In this document: positions 1-50,113 of the stretch, in pieces
Layout: every line of letters begins with the position of its first letter
Position numbering within the stretch: position 1 is the stretch's first letter
Notes under the pieces: generated by a model
Told to the model about the DNA's origin: nothing
The model's input: only the letters and a program-made list of their open reading frames with translations
Databases searched by the model: none
From: Bacteroidia bacterium
Lineage (GTDB): Bacteria > Bacteroidota > Bacteroidia > UKL13-3
Direction of reading: 5' to 3'
DNA: 54,855 bases
Assembly (NCBI GenBank): GCA_018058135.1
Contig: JAGPCK010000017.1
Span: 1-54,855 of the forward strand
Position numbers and translations under genes: made by a program

Positions 1-4
1 TGCC

Positions 5-28
5 ATGGTTCGTGTCGTCACGAACCAT
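5..28. repeat. REP-like hairpin, copy A
   Basis: Perfect inverted repeat: arm ATGGTTCGTG at 5-14, loop TCGT at 15-18, arm CACGAACCAT at 19-28. It lies about 15 bases past the stop codon of the RAYT gene. Its loop is the reverse complement of the loop of copy B (650-673), so A and B face each other across the transposase gene. Related copies are at 2122-2151, 2258-2283 and 21368-21386. Confidence 0.85.
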
Positions 29-43
29 CTTCCCAAACTATTG

Positions 44-598
44 CTATTCCCCATCCAGTTCAATTCTTATATCCTTTAGAAAAGTAAAACTAATTTCCCC
101 TTTTTCATAAAAAGACGCAGAAGAGTATGGGTAAAGAGTAAAGTCATCGGTAAGGTTCCATTTTTTACTCACCGGATTGTGGTGAATATAGTCCAGCTTT
201 TGAAAAATGATTTCAGGTGAATAAAGTTCAGTAGCTAATGAATCCCTTTGCCAGAATTCAAATTTTTTGTTGGCCGCATTTACCTGAAATTTCAGAAGCT
301 CATCAGGTTGGGGGATGAGCATACTTTTGAATTGATGAGCTGTGTATTTTAAGAATGAAACATGTGGCATTTCTTTGCCGTTTTTTGATTCTGCCTTCCA
401 AATGAAGTGGACATGAGTAGGCATAATAACAAAGGCGTATACAGATAGATGTTTTTTGTCTGACAGATACGAAAGCGAGTTGAGAATAATGTTACAAGCA
501 TCCTCATGGTATAGAAGAGGAATATGCTGGTGTATACTGGCAGTCCAGAAATAGATAGTACCAAGTTCTATGTGAGATTTCCTTAAATCGTTTTCCAT
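44..598 (-). CDS. REP-associated tyrosine transposase (Y1_Tnp / TnpA_REP family)
   Basis: A 184-residue protein of the HUH single-strand transposase superfamily (related to IS200/IS605 TnpA). The metal-binding HxH pair is visible as MPTHVHFIW (H62, H64), preceded by the typical hydrophobic strand. The candidate nucleophile is Y137 in LDYIHHNP, followed by the NPV motif usual in RAYTs; FWQRD (115-119) is another family hallmark. Length is normal and no frameshift is seen, so the enzyme looks intact. Family members nick and join DNA at REP hairpins; matching hairpins flank this gene on both sides and recur elsewhere in the window. Start is ATG at 598, and the leader to hairpin B is about 50 bases. 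Base composition is AT-richer than the core genes to the right. Confidence 0.88.
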   Translation of the reverse strand: MENDLRKSHIELGTIYFWTASIHQHIPLLYHEDACNIILNSLSYLSDKKHLSVYAFVIMPTHVHFIWKAESKNGKEMPHVSFLKYTAHQFKSMLIPQPDELLKFQVNAANKKFEFWQRDSLATELYSPEIIFQKLDYIHHNPVSKKWNLTDDFTLYPYSSASFYEKGEISFTFLKDIRIELDGE

Positions 599-649
599 AA
601 GCTAGTTGGACGAATTTAAGAATTAGTTGTTACATTGAGGTGCAAGTTC

Positions 650-673
650 GTGGTTCGTGACGACACGAACCAC
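650..673. repeat. REP-like hairpin, copy B
   Basis: Perfect inverted repeat: arm GTGGTTCGTG at 650-659, loop ACGA at 660-663, arm CACGAACCAC at 664-673. It lies just upstream of the RAYT start and is oriented opposite to copy A. The right flank CACAGCGG is shared with copy E near uvrA (21378-21394), so the repeat unit extends some bases beyond the hairpin on that side. Confidence 0.85.
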
Positions 674-709
674 AGCGGGAGTATGTTAGCTATTATTTGA
701 TAAGAGAGT

Positions 710-1942
710 TTAATTGGAACTGCTGAATTGCTTATCAAAATGAGAGAACATTTTTAATCGCTCATAATAGTTACTAATTCTTGTAAGATTTTGTTTATGA
801 GTAATAATTTCTACATCAATTCCTAATCTATCATAGATTTCCTTTTCCATGTCCGAAAAATCCTGATTTTTACTTAGTATTAGCCTTACTTTTAATCCTT
901 CGGGGTTGAACTCACGATCAATATTATCCCTTATAAATTCAAGATTTGATTTGTTAGCAAATCCACTTTTATAGAGTTTTGCTTGAGTTAAAGCACTCCT
1001 GAAGACTTTTGCCTTGTGAGATGTTAAAGATTTATCAGGTAATTTAAATTCATCAATTTCTACAGGCACTGTCTTATTGTAATAAGGTATTTTTAAGAAA
1101 TCTGGATTTTCTTTCCAATTAAGTATTTTATCATTTAGGCTTGGTTCATAATGTGATCGTTTGTATAAACCCAATTTCAAGAGAGACTCATTCGAATTTC
1201 TGAAGAGAGGATGAAGTTTCTTTTTTTCATCATCAGGTTTTGAATATTTTCCCTCTAAGAATATTTGATAGTTTTCTATTTTTTCATGAAAGGAAGAAAT
1301 CAATTTGAAATTTAGCCAGTCGTAGTCTAATTTATGAGGGCTTGAGATAAAATCTTCAGATAGAATTTTTGTGAGTTTTGAATAATATTTTGGATTGTTA
1401 CCGAATTCAGTATAATACTTTGGATTAGACCAATTCGAAACTAATTGTTGCACCTGAGAGAACGGAAGGTTTAAGAAGGTAAAGTCATCAAAAATAAGCG
1501 AGCGCCAATTCTTTACGGCAGTAATAATATCAGAAATAAATTGATGGTTATAAGAATCTGAGTTGTGGAATGAGGGGCTATATTGGTTTCTATTGCGCAA
1601 GCTATTAAAAGAGTCTCTTGATATATTATTATATGTATTAGGTATTCTGATTATTGGTATTGACGAAAATTTAAAATTGTGATCATAAAAGGATTCATTC
1701 AGATTTTGGATCCAGAGAATTATGTCGTCTTCATAATCAGAGAAAGGATTATAACCTTTATCTTTTGAAATTATAACATCTAAAGGATTTTGGTGCTGAA
1801 GAACATTTTCTATTAAGAAATTTTTACCACTTGTTACATTATTGAAGTAGAACACAGACCTTATATCTGAGATATTATTATCACTTAAGAGATTCTCGTA
1901 ATGCTCTTTACTACTATCGGGATCAATAATTAATACAAACAT
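710..1942 (-). CDS. Shedu-like (DUF4263) putative nuclease with receiver-like N-terminus
   Basis: A 410-residue protein. The C-terminal part carries a PD-(D/E)xK layout as in DUF4263/Shedu nucleases: PDFL (280-283), then E298-x-K300 inside DEFKLP, then a helix with Q320 and Y324 (ALTQAKLY), then a strand LKVRLILSK and a terminal VEIITHKQNLTR that matches the family's usual end. The N-terminal ~105 residues look like an alpha/beta receiver-type fold: strand FVLIID with acidic residues D7 and D9, strand LDVIIS (54-59) and strand IPIIRI (95-100). The middle region is aromatic-rich and unrecognised. Shedu proteins are known single-gene antiphage systems, and N-terminal sensor domains vary between them. 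The assignment is by eye from motifs; another PD-(D/E)xK family is possible. The gene is AT-rich, on the same strand as the RAYT and isolated from other operons, which suggests horizontal origin. Confidence 0.6.
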   Translation of the reverse strand: MFVLIIDPDSSKEHYENLLSDNNISDIRSVFYFNNVTSGKNFLIENVLQHQNPLDVIISKDKGYNPFSDYEDDIILWIQNLNESFYDHNFKFSSIPIIRIPNTYNNISRDSFNSLRNRNQYSPSFHNSDSYNHQFISDIITAVKNWRSLIFDDFTFLNLPFSQVQQLVSNWSNPKYYTEFGNNPKYYSKLTKILSEDFISSPHKLDYDWLNFKLISSFHEKIENYQIFLEGKYSKPDDEKKKLHPLFRNSNESLLKLGLYKRSHYEPSLNDKILNWKENPDFLKIPYYNKTVPVEIDEFKLPDKSLTSHKAKVFRSALTQAKLYKSGFANKSNLEFIRDNIDREFNPEGLKVRLILSKNQDFSDMEKEIYDRLGIDVEIITHKQNLTRISNYYERLKMFSHFDKQFSSSN

Positions 1943-2030
1943 TACGTAAAGCAGTATTCTATAGACATTCGGATGTTCAGTTTCTTTCTAGATTCGTATT
2001 ACAAAGAACGATTCTCAAGCTACAATCTAC

Positions 2031-2111
2031 AACTTCTCCTTCAAATACTTCCCAGTGTAGCTTTTTTTCTCTTTCACCAAATCTTCGGGTAAGCCGGCAA
2101 ACACGACTTGT
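2031..2111 (-). pseudogene. Displaced copy of the uvrA 3' end
   Basis: Bases 2031-2111 align without gaps to 21451-21531, the last codons of uvrA, in the same orientation. Within 2034-2104 only three positions (2051, 2054, 2063) differ out of 71. The match decays after 2104 and stops about ten bases before REP copy C. No start or other part of uvrA is present, so it is a dead fragment. An open frame of 69 codons crosses it (1977-2186, minus), but in a frame different from UvrA, so it is not treated as a gene. Confidence 0.88.
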
Positions 2112-2121
2112 CTGGCCATTT

Positions 2122-2151
2122 GCTATGGTTCGTGTTATAACAAACCATAGC
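2122..2151. repeat. REP-like hairpin, copy C (degenerate)
   Basis: Outer arms GCTATGGTT (2122-2130) and AACCATAGC (2143-2151) pair perfectly. The inner CGTG...CA part is decayed relative to copies A and B. Orientation is that of copy A. It stands directly beside the uvrA-tail fragment and about 105 bases from copy D, which is in the opposite orientation, so C and D form an inverted pair like A and B but without a gene between them. Confidence 0.7.
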
Positions 2152-2248
2152 TTATTGTAAATATTCTGATGAAATTTTGCAGCCATGCCAGATAAATTTC
2201 AAGTAAAATTACGACCCCAAGTTCACAATTGCAAATTGGGTAAGTAGC

Positions 2249-2710
2249 TTAGTTGGGCTGTTTCGTGATGACACGAACCAGAGCCTTAGCTCCCATGCTT
2301 GATGGTCTTATAGTCGAAACGTCAACTCTGTATGCATATAATTTACAATCATACATGGGACTGACAGCAACATTAAACTTATTCTTATATACAATTCCTT
2401 TTACCTTCAATTCCTGAGTTAAAAAAACAGCAGAGGTCCGCAATTTATCAAGTTCAGAATTGTTATTCCAACACAATGAAACCATTTCATTCATTAGGAA
2501 CGCAAAATCAGGGTTGTCAACTTTGACAACTTGAAAGTCCTCATTTTCGTTCGCACAACCCACGAATTTATGTTTGCAATAAAAGGTAATTTCCGTTGCG
2601 TAATGTTGTTTGTATTTCCAATCTTTATACAAGTGCCATGCGTAAAAAACAGCACTTATTGTCAGAATAAGACCAAACGCATAGAACGTATATTTTAAAA
2701 GTGCTTTCAA
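2249..2710 (-). CDS. Membrane-anchored protein of unknown function, C-terminus encoded by a REP
   Basis: A 153-residue protein with one N-terminal membrane segment (about residues 8-26) and a basic patch KDWKYK after it, then a soluble domain with four cysteines (C45, C52, C80, C122 by rough count), which suggests an extracytoplasmic, disulfide-containing domain. The family is not recognised. The only in-frame start is TTG at 2710; an in-frame stop lies three codons upstream. The last ~10 codons run through REP copy D (2258-2283), so the tail after GAKALV is repeat-derived and the original stop was probably lost or replaced. Composition is AT-rich like the island to its left. It may be a decayed or recently altered gene. 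Confidence 0.5.
   Translation of the reverse strand: MKALLKYTFYAFGLILTISAVFYAWHLYKDWKYKQHYATEITFYCKHKFVGCANENEDFQVVKVDNPDFAFLMNEMVSLCWNNNSELDKLRTSAVFLTQELKVKGIVYKNKFNVAVSPMYDCKLYAYRVDVSTIRPSSMGAKALVRVITKQPN
2258..2283. repeat. REP-like hairpin, copy D
   Basis: Inner arms TTCGTG (2262-2267) and CACGAA (2272-2277) around the loop ATGA; the outer left arm is changed (GCTGTT instead of the expected ATGG). Orientation matches copies B and E. It lies inside the 3' end of the coding region at 2249-2710. Confidence 0.7.
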
Positions 2711-5822: not shown

Positions 5823-6419
5823 TTAGCCTGCGCTTTGAGCAAGCAGTTGTTGGTGCAGCTTTACCACTTGTTCAATCAGGGAGTGTTCTTCATCATTTTG
5901 CAAAAAGTACTGCCCCAGTCGGTTTCTTTCTTTATCAGACAGTTGGTTGTTGATGCGTTGCAGTATCGCTTCGCGGGTGCTGCCATCGCGCTGCATAGTA
6001 CGTGCAATACGTAACTCCAACGGAGAGTTGACCACAATTACGGCATCGAGTTTTTTGTAGGAACCGCTTTCAAAAAGGAGTGCGGCTTCTTTTAAGGTAT
6101 AAGGTACATGCTTTTGTTGCTTGTTCCAGCGATCGTAATCTTTTGCTACGGCAGGGTGTACCAAGGCATTCAGTTGTTGCAGTTTGGTTGGGTTGTTAAA
6201 TACCAATGCAGAGAGGTGAGCGCGGTTCAACTGCTGTTGTGTGGTATACACTTCTTCACCAAACGTTTTGATGAGGGCCTTGCGTAATGGCACATCTTCA
6301 TTCATCAACGCTTTGGCGCGAGTGTCGGCATAATAAACAGGTATGCCCGATAATTCAAACAGGCGGCAGGCTGTTGATTTTCCACTGCCTATACCGCCTG
6401 TTATGCCCAGCTTTAACAT
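5823..6419 (-). CDS. coaE: Dephospho-CoA kinase
   Basis: A 198-residue CoaE, phosphorylating dephospho-CoA in the last step of coenzyme A synthesis. The P-loop GGIGSGKST is at residues 8-16, followed by YYADTRAK and the lid-region segments VIVVNSPLELRIARTMQRDG. Length is normal. It is the distal gene of the nusB-DUF1573-yajC-coaE run. In many Bacteroidota a YbbR-like gene stands between yajC and coaE; here only 17 bases separate them. Confidence 0.95.
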   Translation of the reverse strand: MLKLGITGGIGSGKSTACRLFELSGIPVYYADTRAKALMNEDVPLRKALIKTFGEEVYTTQQQLNRAHLSALVFNNPTKLQQLNALVHPAVAKDYDRWNKQQKHVPYTLKEAALLFESGSYKKLDAVIVVNSPLELRIARTMQRDGSTREAILQRINNQLSDKERNRLGQYFLQNDEEHSLIEQVVKLHQQLLAQSAG

Positions 6420-6436
6420 GCTGTTGCGTTGTTTAA

Positions 6437-6781
6437 TTATTTTTTGTCTTTAGCGTCTTTGTCCTTATTGGCATTCAACGGTTGTGAGGCTTCCATAGAA
6501 ACCGCAGTTTTGTCGATACGCAGGCGGGTGCCTTCGCTGTCAATAATAAAGTGAGCTTCACCGGCATCAATAATTTTAGCATGAATACCGCCAATGGTAA
6601 TAATTTTATCGCCTTTGCCTAAAGCCTCGCGAAACTTCTTTTGCTGTTTGCTTTTGCGCATCTGGGGTAAAATCATGAATACATAAAATACCACCATAAT
6701 GAGGCCCAGCATAATGAGTTGTCCCATTCCACCGCCCTGCGCTCCGCCTTGTGCGGCTAATACAACTGAAATCATGTTCAT
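6437..6781 (-). CDS. yajC: Preprotein translocase accessory subunit YajC
   Basis: A 114-residue membrane protein with one transmembrane helix (about residues 18-38), then the basic segment PQMRKSKQQKKFREAL and the conserved GDKIITIGGIHAKI that identify YajC. It is an accessory of the SecDF translocon complex. The C-terminus is a charged lysine/aspartate tail. It starts 10 bases after the DUF1573 gene and is in the same transcription unit. Confidence 0.93.
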   Translation of the reverse strand: MNMISVVLAAQGGAQGGGMGQLIMLGLIMVVFYVFMILPQMRKSKQQKKFREALGKGDKIITIGGIHAKIIDAGEAHFIIDSEGTRLRIDKTAVSMEASQPLNANKDKDAKDKK

Positions 6782-6791
6782 ATACGTGTGT

Positions 6792-7244
6792 TTATTGTTT
6801 TGCTGTTACATCACCTTTTATGTGCAACTCCTTAATGGAAGGTTCACAATTGGTGGTGAGGGTGACCATTTTGTCTTGTATGCCGCTTTTGCCGTTGCTG
6901 TCAAACTTCACATCAATCTTGGCACTTTCACCCGCTTTAATGGGGTGGCGCGGATAATCAGGAACAGTGCAGCCGCAACTGGCAGTGGCATTGGAAATAA
7001 TCAAATCGCTGCCCCCGTTGTTGGTGAATTCAAAACTGTAGGTTACAACCTCGCCTGCGGTAATCTTACCGAAGTTATACTCCGTGTTTTTAAATTCAAT
7101 GTTGGGAAGTGAGGCAGGGTCGGCCTTTTCACTGGCTGATTGTGAGTTGGACACTACATCGGTAGAAATTTTACCTTCTCCGGAGTTTCCGCAGGCACCA
7201 AATAACAGTGCTGAAGTGGCAATTGAAAATAGTAATTGTTTCAT
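6792..7244 (-). CDS. DUF1573 lipoprotein
   Basis: A 150-residue lipoprotein: signal sequence with lipobox LLFGAC (Cys18) and then a linker rich in S and D. The mature part is a DUF1573 Ig-like/ASH-type domain, recognisable from FKNTEYNFGKITAGE, FTNNGGSDLIISNATASCGC and DYPRHPIKAGE. The CGC pair is characteristic of the family. Its function is unknown. It sits between nusB and yajC, a conserved order in Bacteroidota. Confidence 0.88.
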   Translation of the reverse strand: MKQLLFSIATSALLFGACGNSGEGKISTDVVSNSQSASEKADPASLPNIEFKNTEYNFGKITAGEVVTYSFEFTNNGGSDLIISNATASCGCTVPDYPRHPIKAGESAKIDVKFDSNGKSGIQDKMVTLTTNCEPSIKELHIKGDVTAKQ

Positions 7245-7276
7245 AATTGTATGGTTTACAAAAATAATGTTTCTGA

Positions 7277-46539: not shown

Positions 46540-46557
46540 GTGAATTTAGATTTTAAT

Positions 46558-47181
46558 ATGAAAATTTCCTGTTGTTTACTTATTTTCTTTAGCCTGATAA
46601 AATATTCTTGGGCACAAGATTGTGCAGTTCTTTCTGCATCAAATAATATTTTATACCATGGATATCCAAATCTTGTGAAGGTTTTTGTTGAGAAAAAAGG
46701 GTGTGATAAATTAACACTGTCTACTAAAAACAAAAGAGTTAGAATACTAAGAGAGAAGGAGTGTCTGTTTACTATAGAAATAGATAGTTTTACAGAAAAG
46801 GTTATTTTGGAAGTCAATTATTTAGGGGAAACTAAAAAGCAATCAAAAGAGTTCTTATTTACAGTAAAGGAAGTTCCAATGCCTGAACTTACATTGTATT
46901 CTTACACGAATGGTCAAAGAATTGAATTGGACTCTTTTAAGGTTGTTAATACTCCTTCATTAAAATGGGATTTTCGTTTGCATTGTAATATTTTGAATTT
47001 TAAAGCCTGCATAATTCGTAATAACACATGTATTGACTCTGTAAATTGTGATGCTACGATAACTGATGCAAGATTTATTTCTAATTTAAGAAAAGGAGAT
47101 ACCTTATTACTTTATGATATATTGGTTAGAATTGAATCTGTTAAAAGAAATATAGCTCCCTGTCAGTTTGTAATTCAGTAA
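46558..47181 (+). CDS. Secreted protein resembling the GldM C-terminal domain
   Basis: A 207-residue exported protein starting at ATG 46558, with a signal peptide ending KYSWAQ. The mature part resembles the C-terminal domains of GldM: an Ig-like strand region beginning VLSASNNILYHGYPN, then FTVKEVPMPELTLYS, SLKWDFRLHCNIL and a closing LRKGDTLLLYDILVRIESV. GldM is part of the gliding/T9SS motor, and free GldM-C-like proteins exist in Bacteroidota. Similarity is by pattern and could be coincidental with another Ig-like fold. The gene is AT-rich and begins a block of five unknown genes. Confidence 0.55.
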   Translation: MKISCCLLIFFSLIKYSWAQDCAVLSASNNILYHGYPNLVKVFVEKKGCDKLTLSTKNKRVRILREKECLFTIEIDSFTEKVILEVNYLGETKKQSKEFLFTVKEVPMPELTLYSYTNGQRIELDSFKVVNTPSLKWDFRLHCNILNFKACIIRNNTCIDSVNCDATITDARFISNLRKGDTLLLYDILVRIESVKRNIAPCQFVIQ

Positions 47182-47187
47182 TTATTG

Positions 47188-48147
47188 ATGAAAAGCGTAG
47201 TTAAGTGTCACCCAAAAGACAAGACAATAAGTAAACTGATACTCTTTTTACTAATTTTTATTCACCCCCTCATACTTCATGCACAGGTCTCTAGTCTCAA
47301 TGACAAGTATGTTAAGGAGGAGATTTATAAAAGTGTAATCAGAAATTTTATTCATTATGAAGTATACAAAAATATTGAAAATCAGAAAAAAGATTTTTTC
47401 TCTGGAGATACGCGTAAATTAAATTTCCAAAATTTCATTCCTGATAGTAACATGTATTATGGATTATTTTTAAGAGAATTGAATGATAAAATAAATCTTT
47501 ATAATGAAGAGTACACCTTAATTGAAGTAAAAGGCTTGACTCAGCTCAGAATTAAAAAGGAAAGAGACTCAATAGATATAAAGCTTGGTCTTCCTCCTTA
47601 TGATTTAACCGTAAATCGGCTCACGGAATGGAATTCATCTTTAATTGCCTATAATTTTAAAAAAAGAGAAATACTTTATCTGAGTGGCCCATTTTTTTTG
47701 GACAGTATTATTAATGAATATGTGAGATTATCTGAGCCAATAGACACAGTGAAGGTTAGACAATATGTTTCCTTAAAGTACTATATGTGTGAACCCCAAA
47801 ATATTTACATTAAAGCTCAAAGAAAAGAAACTGTAATTGTGGAGTTTCAGTCAGGGTTTTCTGGAGAAACAATACAGGTAACCGTATTAAAAAGAAGAAA
47901 TAGCATTGAAGAGAAAATCCGGAGAATAGTCTTCTTCAAAGACAAAATATGGAGCATAGAACAAGAAAGAGGGGAATCATTATCTGGTATTACCTCACAG
48001 TTAGAGATTGATAGAATTAATGAGCTTTATAATTACATTTTAAGTAAGGTGAAGCAAAATGCAAACGTAGAAATAAGTAGTAAGGAAGGTAAAAAATTAA
48101 TTAAGGAAATTGAGGAAGCAAAAAAGAAGGTAAATAGGAAAAAATGA
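47188..48147 (+). CDS. Exported protein of unknown function
   Basis: A 319-residue protein starting at ATG 47188; a TTG three bases earlier is less likely. Signal-like hydrophobic segment at residues ~18-32 (LILFLLIFIHPLILHAQ), then a mainly alpha/beta mature part ending in a lysine/glutamate-rich helix. No family was recognised. It begins six bases after the GldM-C-like gene stop, so the two are co-transcribed. Lysine- and asparagine-rich composition reflects the AT-rich DNA. Confidence 0.75.
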   Translation: MKSVVKCHPKDKTISKLILFLLIFIHPLILHAQVSSLNDKYVKEEIYKSVIRNFIHYEVYKNIENQKKDFFSGDTRKLNFQNFIPDSNMYYGLFLRELNDKINLYNEEYTLIEVKGLTQLRIKKERDSIDIKLGLPPYDLTVNRLTEWNSSLIAYNFKKREILYLSGPFFLDSIINEYVRLSEPIDTVKVRQYVSLKYYMCEPQNIYIKAQRKETVIVEFQSGFSGETIQVTVLKRRNSIEEKIRRIVFFKDKIWSIEQERGESLSGITSQLEIDRINELYNYILSKVKQNANVEISSKEGKKLIKEIEEAKKKVNRKK

Positions 48148-48203
48148 TAATCATAAAAAGAAACAGCAGAAATAGTATGTGTTTCAATATGTTTTTTCTT
48201 TAT

Positions 48204-48233
48204 AGTGCTGTCAGTCGTTACAACTGACATAGG
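48204..48233. repeat. Hairpin H2, second palindrome family
   Basis: TGTCAGTCG (48209-48217), loop TTA, CAACTGACA (48221-48229): nine-base arms with one mismatch. The 30-base unit, AGTGC at the left and ATAGG at the right, matches the reverse complement of H3 at 27 of 30 positions. It ends 18 bases before the ATG at 48252. Confidence 0.8.
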
Positions 48234-48251
48234 AAAAGTATAAAAGATACA

Positions 48252-49265
48252 ATGAAGCAGAATACTAAAATAAGTTCCTTTTCAATAAACTCATTTACTA
48301 TAAGCTGGGTTGTACTCCTCTATTATATTCTACAGAGCAATTGCACAGTTGATGAAACTAAACAGCAACAGTATCAAAAATCTATTGATTCGTCTGTTGT
48401 TGCTAATCACCTCCTAAAGCAATTTTCAAAGGAGGATCATGCAAAGGGTTACTACGTTCTTGAACCTAAAATGTTGATTGGGCTACCTAATTACTTAGAG
48501 AAATGCTGGAAAGATACTCTTTCAAGTGGAGTTGAACTGTTTTATATAGGACGTTTTCGCCCTCTAATTGATAGGCATGGACCAGATTTTTTAATAAAGT
48601 ACAACAATGAATACGATGTTTACATTCATGAAAATATAAAGCCAGCATCTTCTGCAAAAACTGAGTGTGACGTAAATACTATACTTGCGTCAAGTCTGAA
48701 TGAATTTTTACAAGAATCAAGAATTCTTAATGGTCGAAATATTTCTGAAAGGGATAAGATTGATCTGATTCAGAAGTTATATGTGGCTACAGTAATTCAG
48801 CAGCATTATGTTCAATCTGATTACGGATTCTATATTTCACCTTATTATTTTTTAAATGAAAGGAACATTAATAGAATAAATTCTATATCTGACTTCAATC
48901 AGTTACAAAAGATAATAAGTTTGAATAATTTGCCTTTTAATATTCGCCAAACTCTTCCCAGCGATAATTTTGATACTTCTTTATCAGGAGAAGAGTATGT
49001 TAGCTTAAGTAGAAGAACTTTCAGAGAAATGAGAATCAGAGAAGACTCAATGATTAAGTTAAATTGGCAAGAAAACGTTGCATATTTGAAAACACAGATT
49101 AATGATATCAAGCACGAAATCAATGCTCCATATACATATTTTTACTATACGTATCCAGACGTTCGTGTATTTAAGTTGATTATTACTAAGAAAAATTCAA
49201 ATTATTTTATTGTTTCTGAGCATATAAATTGTTTAAGTGAATACTGTGGTATGCTATTACTTTGA
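48252..49265 (+). CDS. Protein of unknown function, membrane-anchored
   Basis: A 337-residue protein with one N-terminal hydrophobic segment (residues ~14-30, ending LQSNC) that may be a membrane anchor or a non-standard lipobox; the residue before Cys is Asn, so lipidation is doubtful. The rest is soluble and alpha/beta with many charged residues. No family recognised. It lies between hairpins H2 and H3, which are inverted relative to each other. Confidence 0.75.
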   Translation: MKQNTKISSFSINSFTISWVVLLYYILQSNCTVDETKQQQYQKSIDSSVVANHLLKQFSKEDHAKGYYVLEPKMLIGLPNYLEKCWKDTLSSGVELFYIGRFRPLIDRHGPDFLIKYNNEYDVYIHENIKPASSAKTECDVNTILASSLNEFLQESRILNGRNISERDKIDLIQKLYVATVIQQHYVQSDYGFYISPYYFLNERNINRINSISDFNQLQKIISLNNLPFNIRQTLPSDNFDTSLSGEEYVSLSRRTFREMRIREDSMIKLNWQENVAYLKTQINDIKHEINAPYTYFYYTYPDVRVFKLIITKKNSNYFIVSEHINCLSEYCGMLLL

Positions 49266-49290
49266 TGTTTTTTTTGAAGAAAATATAAAC

Positions 49291-49320
49291 CCTATGTCAG
49301 TTGAAGCAACTGACAGCACT
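49291..49320. repeat. Hairpin H3, second palindrome family
   Basis: TGTCAGTTG (49295-49303), loop AAG, CAACTGACA (49307-49315): a perfect nine-base stem. It is H2 in reverse orientation. It ends seven bases before the ATG at 49327. An ATG at 49294 sits at its edge. Confidence 0.85.
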
Positions 49321-49326
49321 GAAAAA

Positions 49327-49773
49327 ATGAAAAAGAAAATTAAATTTTCGATAGTTTCATTCTTTATTTTTAGCATGATTAATTTATTGTGCTATCTCAT
49401 AATTAATGTGGTTGATGATATTGGTTTTAAGGGTGTTTATTTTGAATATATATTTAGCTTACCTTTCGTTTACTGCCTCTTTTTGTTCTTATTTTCGCTA
49501 TTTATAGAAAAATCGTTCCTTTGGTTCCCTTTGTTTTCGCTTACATGGAAATTATGTTTAATCATTCCAGAATATGATTTTAAACATGCTGATATATTGT
49601 TAGGAATAACAACTAACTTTTCTTTGATTTTTAATATGGCACAAAAAGCTCTGCAATATACTGTTGGACATACTGCCACAACAGAAATAACTTTGCATAC
49701 CCTAGGGATGTTTTTATACCAAGTATTAATACTTTATTTCGCTAAAAAGGTTTCAGATAGAACTGAAGAATAG
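49327..49773 (+). CDS. Multi-pass membrane protein of unknown function
   Basis: About 148 residues with four to five hydrophobic segments (IVSFFIFSMINLLCYLIINV; YIFSLPFVYCLFLFLFSLFI; FLWFPLFSLTWKLCLII; LGMFLYQVLILYFA). ATG at 49327 is chosen since the alternative ATG at 49294 lies within the hairpin and would encode it. No family recognised. The AT-rich composition is clear: of the 60 bases 49501-49560 only 18 are G or C. Confidence 0.65.
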   Translation: MKKKIKFSIVSFFIFSMINLLCYLIINVVDDIGFKGVYFEYIFSLPFVYCLFLFLFSLFIEKSFLWFPLFSLTWKLCLIIPEYDFKHADILLGITTNFSLIFNMAQKALQYTVGHTATTEITLHTLGMFLYQVLILYFAKKVSDRTEE

Positions 49774-49786
49774 AATTCTAAATCAC

Positions 49787-50113
49787 ATGAAGATAGAAGG
49801 CAATAAGTTATTGTTAAATGAAGAGGTAAAGTTTCCATTTCCTATTACAAAATGTATTGTTTCTCAGAATAAAATTTTAGTTCTTCTCAACATTTCCCCC
49901 AAAGTTATTTTTAACGAGAACGTATATTGTGTTGGCTTAAATGCTAATATTATCTGGCAGATTAGTAAACAAGATTATTTATATGAAAACAGTCCATTTG
50001 TTAACATTATGGAATCTGATAATGGTGATATTTTGGTTATAAATTGGGATGGTTCTCAGTATACTGTTGACATGGAAACAGGTAATATTCTTAGACGGAA
50101 TTTTCATAAGTGA
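49787..50113 (+). CDS. Small protein with a beta-propeller-blade-like pattern
   Basis: A 108-residue soluble protein. The strand pattern VYCVGLNANIIWQI, IMESDNGDILVINWDGSQYTVD and METGNILRRNF resembles one or two blades of a PQQ/WD-type propeller, where a Trp-Asp-Gly turn and a terminal D-x-x-T-G closure recur. Too short for a full propeller. It could be an immunity- or adaptor-like protein but nothing shows this. It is the last gene of the AT-rich block, 13 bases after the membrane protein. Confidence 0.6.
   Translation: MKIEGNKLLLNEEVKFPFPITKCIVSQNKILVLLNISPKVIFNENVYCVGLNANIIWQISKQDYLYENSPFVNIMESDNGDILVINWDGSQYTVDMETGNILRRNFHK

Follow-up and report, generated by a model that had tools for sequence, protein, structure and literature searches.

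The nuclease gene and its surroundings

We have analyzed a stretch of 54,855 nucleotides from a Bacteroidia bacterium, which we call the window. Close to its start there is an open reading frame on the minus strand, coding for a protein of 410 amino acids (P0001). The features found in this region are given below, where the domain names are predictions:

6–27, no strand: REP-like palindrome TGGTTCGTGNNNNCACGAACCA
44–598, minus: putative RAYT (REP-associated tyrosine transposase), NF047646 with E 3.2e-19, below the cut-off
651–672, no strand: REP-like palindrome, exact inverse of the 6–27 copy, between the RAYT and the nuclease gene
710–1942, minus: nuclease gene, 410 amino acids (P0001), ATG start, stop included; pseudo-receiver head, helical middle part and PD-(D/E)XK Shedu-type nuclease
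713–1306, minus: Shedu-type nuclease domain, residues 213–410, from the match of the family profile to 8ps4 and of the homologues to PF14082 and a Bacteroidota Shedu profile
1043–1045, minus: Lys300 of E-x-K, predicted catalytic, in 13 of 13 members; same column as K of E-V-K in 8ps4
1049–1051, minus: Glu298 of E-x-K, predicted catalytic, E in 12 of 13 members and D in one; same column as E of E-V-K in 8ps4
1100–1102, minus: Asp281 of the PDF motif, predicted catalytic, in 13 of 13 members
1307–1501, minus: middle part, residues 148–212, with signature TKILSE-F-(x4)-KLDYDWLNF, from family conservation; structure of low confidence
1502–1942, minus: pseudo-receiver domain, residues 1–147, from the match of the family profile to host receivers, the modelled fold of L035 and, more weakly, that of P0001
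1763–1765, minus: acceptor position Lys60, inside the pseudo-receiver domain, preceded by an invariant Asp55
2122–2147, no strand: REP-like palindrome with 2 mismatches, upstream of the nuclease gene
2259–2280, no strand: REP-like palindrome with 1 mismatch, upstream of the nuclease gene

An earlier note, made from the sequence alone, had described the gene as AT-rich and placed beside a RAYT; the first point agrees with our results, and the neighbour is a putative RAYT. The region 1001–2000 has 29.8% GC, compared with 38–47% across most of the window. The RAYT match reaches 69.2 bits, while the cut-off of the model is 80; it aligns residues 10–159 of 184 with positions 6–146 of the 146 in the model, and palindromes are found on both sides of the gene. 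There are 17 copies of the palindrome in the genome (with up to 3 mismatches), four of them within window positions 1–2290, compared with a single copy of a control pattern. In two congeners a different gene follows nadC, which by reading of the open reading frames resembles a proton pyrophosphatase in one (G002) and an acetyltransferase in the other (G001), so the segment which contains P0001 is accessory. No known defence gene is recognised next to P0001 in the window, where the contig starts at base 1.

Another AT-rich region (28–31% GC) is found at 46540–50113 of the window, after a TsaD gene. It contains five consecutive open reading frames on the plus strand. The four which were scanned present no Pfam family above the cut-off, with one weak NCBIfam match similar to GldM.

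P0001 is present as a single copy in its own genome, and no further one turns up among 58 genomes from the closest groups. No matches appear when plasmid and phage records are searched by tblastn with P0001, or plasmids with its relatives L002 and L035, and no relative is found in the viral contigs scanned. Used alone, the protein matches no family at E ≤ 1 in Pfam, PADLOC or NCBIfam, and no PDB sequence; a search of PHROGs gives one match, at chance level.

Homologues and the nuclease half

The relatives of P0001 are much more informative than the protein alone. Searching 395 genomes from the phylum gives a match, L002, with E 8.6e-18 over residues 4–311, which covers both the head and the D-ExK residues. 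When a two-row alignment is compared with the genome collection, three other members appear: L034 in a Chitinophagaceae MAG (E 2e-17), L035 in Pedobacter frigoris (E 3e-14) and L036, which is frameshifted, in Mucilaginibacter corticis. Matches are found in 13 of the 351 genomes of the taxonomic family of L035, some of them as partial copies only, and in 11 of the 246 genomes of the taxonomic family of L034, where this head is only present in L034, L055 and L056. In total, 12 full-length homologues contain both the head and the nuclease halves; they come from Pedobacter, Chitinophagaceae and other Bacteroidota. Our family alignment contains these and P0001, 13 proteins altogether, and an 11-row version was also made. 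The signature of the middle part is conserved across the family.

Some members are broken. There is a frameshift in L036 (7645–8816) and an interrupted frame in L041 / L112 (around 6077–7248, genome G753), and L050–L052 are partial copies. The frame breaks in M. corticis and in G753 may correspond either to frequent decay or to assembly errors. The genome which contains L002 (G191) also has a second, ordinary Shedu gene (L009, contig C10), which shares the contig of L002 at a distance of 121 kb.

The C-terminal half of P0001 had been considered similar to Shedu nucleases (SduA, DUF4263 / PF14082). This similarity is borne out by the homologues, through the Pfam SduA_C family and a profile match to 8ps4, while P0001 alone is below detection. 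The profile search for DUF4263 which had been proposed is positive for some of the homologues and negative for P0001 itself, both in Pfam and in PADLOC. Five of the 12 homologues pass the SduA_C cut-off of 27 bits (L002, with 52.8 bits, L042, L043, L046 and L048), the other seven score under it. The SduA models of PADLOC match six of the 10 homologues tested, five of them below E 1e-4 (L002, L034, L042, L043 and L044) and L035 weakly (E 0.04); for L045–L048 they give nothing. These matches start at residue 180 or later, so the PADLOC models leave this head uncovered. A profile made from 20 other Bacteroidota Shedu proteins finds L002, L034, L035 and L036, with E values from 7e-12 to 8e-9 for the four homologues, and does not find P0001.

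When the family profile is compared with all PDB sequences, the best match is the E. coli Shedu protein 8ps4 (E 1.2e-5, 125 positions), with E-x-K aligned on E-x-K. It is the only match under E 0.01, and the next one has E 0.5. The PDF aspartate lies at the edge of this alignment and does not fall on any Asp of 8ps4, so its correspondence rests on the alignment with Bacteroidota Shedu proteins.

All the residues which had been named in P0001 are present: P280-D281-F282-L283, E298-F-K300-L-P302, Q320 and Y324, as well as D7 and D9 in the head. The protein ends in VEIITHKQNLTR, as had been stated. D281, K300 and Y324 are invariant in the 13 members, position 298 carries E in all but one, which has D, and position 320 is Q in 12 of 13. 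P0001 retains E266, D281, E298, K300, Q320 and Y324, and its D281, E298 and K300 occupy the D and E-x-K columns of PD-(D/E)XK nucleases. The nuclease part gives models of low confidence, both for P0001 and for L035; no Shedu chain appears in the structural match lists, which has little weight for a part modelled so poorly. From the sequences of its relatives, we consider that the C-terminal half of P0001 is a Shedu nuclease homologue, as the protein itself falls under the detection limit.

The receiver-fold head

The N-terminal part had been described as a receiver or flavodoxin fold covering the first 105 residues. The receiver part of this description is supported by profile and structure matches, and the fold extends over the first 145 residues approximately; the flavodoxin part is not, as receivers dominate the structural matches. 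The head alignment of the 13 proteins, compared with 30 receivers of the host genome, gives an hhalign probability of 93.4% and a score of 43.5, with a colinear match over residues 3–129. Control scores are much lower: at most 18.5 for 200 column-shuffled receiver alignments, 12.9 for the reversed alignment and at most 18.1 for 20 single heads of other Shedu proteins. The head of P0001 alone reaches 4.9%, short of significance, so it has been assigned by homology with its family.

AlphaFold2 models were built from a five-row alignment. In the model of the L035 head, block means are mostly 64–89 up to residue 140, with one block of 47. It presents five strand-helix units, (beta-alpha)5; helix 3 is followed by an inserted short strand, and helix 5 is long. 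Compared with solved receivers it gives a best Z value of 13.1, with an rmsd of 2.3 for 126 residues. Receivers make up most of its top matches, and the top Foldseek match is CheY. The model of P0001 (mean pLDDT 43) is poor past the first 60 residues; nevertheless, its best structural matches are receiver proteins. Profile and model evidence from the relatives leads us to assign the head of P0001 to the receiver fold. A flavodoxin fold was also considered and dropped: most of the 50 best structural matches are receivers, with PurE and B12-binding folds further down the Foldseek ranking.

The residues required by a working receiver are a different matter. The acceptor residue is Y, E, Q, E, N, D, E, E, D, D, E, N and K in the 13 members, the last one being Lys60 of P0001. 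At the canonical receiver positions P0001 has D7, P8, K60, P101 and H126, where the alignment is uncertain at H126. Neither the acidic pair nor the Thr/Ser is conserved across the family. The K-P after strand 5 is kept in L046–L048, and the Lys also in L042, L043 and L056. On the other hand, the Asp located five residues ahead of the acceptor (Asp55 in P0001) is invariant in the family, and is found in 24 of the 30 host receivers. The Pfam Response_reg model (PF00072) does not match P0001 at E ≤ 1, nor any of five members at E ≤ 10, and P0001 is absent from the 37 receivers detected in its own genome.

Special mention had been made of D7 and D9, acidic residues which follow the first strand. 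D7 does occupy one canonical acidic position, while D9 lies outside the pair. They are not evidence of phosphorylation, since a lysine, Lys60, takes the acceptor position and the family conserves none of these positions. We consider this head to be a pseudo-receiver, as its residues indicate. As the acceptor varies among D, E, N, Q, K and Y, control by kinase phosphorylation is unlikely. The domain looks like the product of decay from an ordinary receiver ancestor.

Proposed function and relation to known Shedu systems

We consider it likely that the gene codes for a divergent, single-protein Shedu-type (type I) anti-phage nuclease with a pseudo-receiver as its regulatory head. Type I Shedu proteins are autoinhibited nucleases, freed when the N-terminal domain senses, for example, DNA ends (PMC12904381; see also PMC12137116, PMC12409362). 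Their heads are diverse, and some are enzymes, for example a GHKL ATPase (PMC12137116). The variable N-terminal regulatory domain of this type (PMC12137116, PMC12409362) corresponds here to the receiver-fold head. By analogy, the PD-(D/E)XK domain would be held inactive within a resting oligomer. The pseudo-receiver would be a sensor or clamp which binds a protein or ligand and oligomerises, rather than the target of a histidine kinase; dimerisation without phosphorylation is one possible mode of pseudo-receivers, according to a review (PMC12632262). A cue made by the phage, such as DNA ends, a phage protein or a small molecule, would meet the pseudo-receiver and rearrange it. This change would pass through the helical middle part and release the nuclease, and we predict that nucleases of the P0001 type probably cut phage DNA.

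A maximum-likelihood tree was obtained from the nuclease parts only of the 13 family proteins and 24 other Shedu proteins. All 13 are placed on one side of a single branch (100/96), which indicates that this head has been kept within a single lineage of nucleases. The longest branch (2.58) is that of P0001, whose position within the clade is unsure. P0001 has also lost the near-invariant G-R and TYDE motifs, which appear as S357-K358 and T381-H-K. This long branch and the lost motifs make the activity of P0001 itself less certain; it may be weakened or repurposed. They would also fit a copy in decay beside a RAYT/REP insertion, almost or fully inactive, and plainly broken relatives, such as those mentioned above, indicate that decay is frequent in the family. 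We find this unlikely: The reading frame is full-length with an ATG start, all the putative catalytic residues are kept at about 25% overall identity, and of the 15 positions which do not vary among the other 12 members, 13 are retained.

The surroundings of the homologues give a varied picture. L034 immediately precedes a type II restriction gene, which is accompanied by its methyltransferase, and has a HEC-01A ATPase gene nearby. The homologue at L111 has a type I specificity subunit in its vicinity, an AbiZ-like gene adjoins that at L108, and near that at L114 there is an ATPase which matches MzaB weakly. Conjugation or mobilisation genes surround L035, L103 and L109, by reading of the open reading frames. 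The ten neighbours scanned were picked by hand, so the defence genes are supporting evidence rather than statistical evidence. The location of several homologues on conjugative or mobilisable elements might suggest that the receiver-headed nuclease serves a purpose other than phage defence, for instance by controlling plasmids and conjugative elements, or in competition between mobile elements. We give little credit to this possibility, as other homologues adjoin restriction-modification and abortive-infection-type genes, and the Shedu systems which have been tested act against phages (PMC12137116, PMC12904381).

Two other neighbours should be mentioned. A 124 amino acid reading frame which by reading resembles a free-standing receiver of the LytTR type (L109:5609–5980, minus strand) directly adjoins the L048 gene, a Shedu with a pseudo-receiver head. 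The gene adjoining L045 (L106:4392–5987) is matched by Argonaute-associated PADLOC models (E 9e-23), perhaps through a shared domain of the Schlafen/AlbA type.

It is very improbable that the head is a working receiver, phosphorylated by an infection-sensing histidine kinase which would turn the nuclease on: The fold is of the receiver type, the acceptor Asp is kept in L044, L047 and L048 and the K-P in L046–L048, but the variable acceptor, the unconserved acidic pair and Thr/Ser and the Lys60 of P0001 argue against it, and no kinase gene is recognised among the neighbours which were read.

The preferred reading, a Shedu-type nuclease with a pseudo-receiver head, may be compared with three known systems. 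E. coli EcSduA (8ps4, 8ps5) also has a C-terminal DUF4263 PD-(D/E)XK nuclease behind a regulatory N-terminal domain. The differences are the receiver-fold head, a sequence match to 8ps4 which is limited to the nuclease part, and the lack of G-R and TYDE in P0001. VcSduA, a type I-D Shedu, has likewise recruited a signalling-type domain as its head, but this is a GHKL-ATPase needed for activity (PMC12137116), whereas the head described here is a non-catalytic receiver fold. Bacterial pseudo-receivers (PMC12632262) share the receiver fold without phosphotransfer residues. Those in this review were computationally identified as receivers, while this head is missed by Pfam Response_reg; here the output is a nuclease, a word which is absent from the main text of the review.

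Our literature search did not find any paper joining Shedu or DUF4263 with receiver domains. A Mol Cell 2025 study of Shedu heads reportedly distinguishes about 79 head types in eight classes. We propose this protein as a candidate new Shedu variant with a pseudo-receiver head, which the published catalogue of head types may already include. It is possible, although we would not go as far as to call it probable, that these proteins form a separate, undescribed Shedu branch of Bacteroidota, in which a receiver stripped of its phosphorylation site acts as the infection sensor of the nuclease, and which has several members missed by current defence-gene models.

How Shedu heads decide on cutting is an open question in this family (PMC12904381), and the way in which bacterial pseudo-receivers are switched on has been called a mystery (PMC12632262). 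Few switches have been studied as well as receivers, so a pseudo-receiver head would make the question of the cutting decision directly testable. Four of the 10 homologues tested have no PADLOC SduA score and seven of the 12 fall under the Pfam cut-off, so surveys would undercount this branch. It exposes a blind spot of present defence-gene models in the Shedu systems of Bacteroidota.
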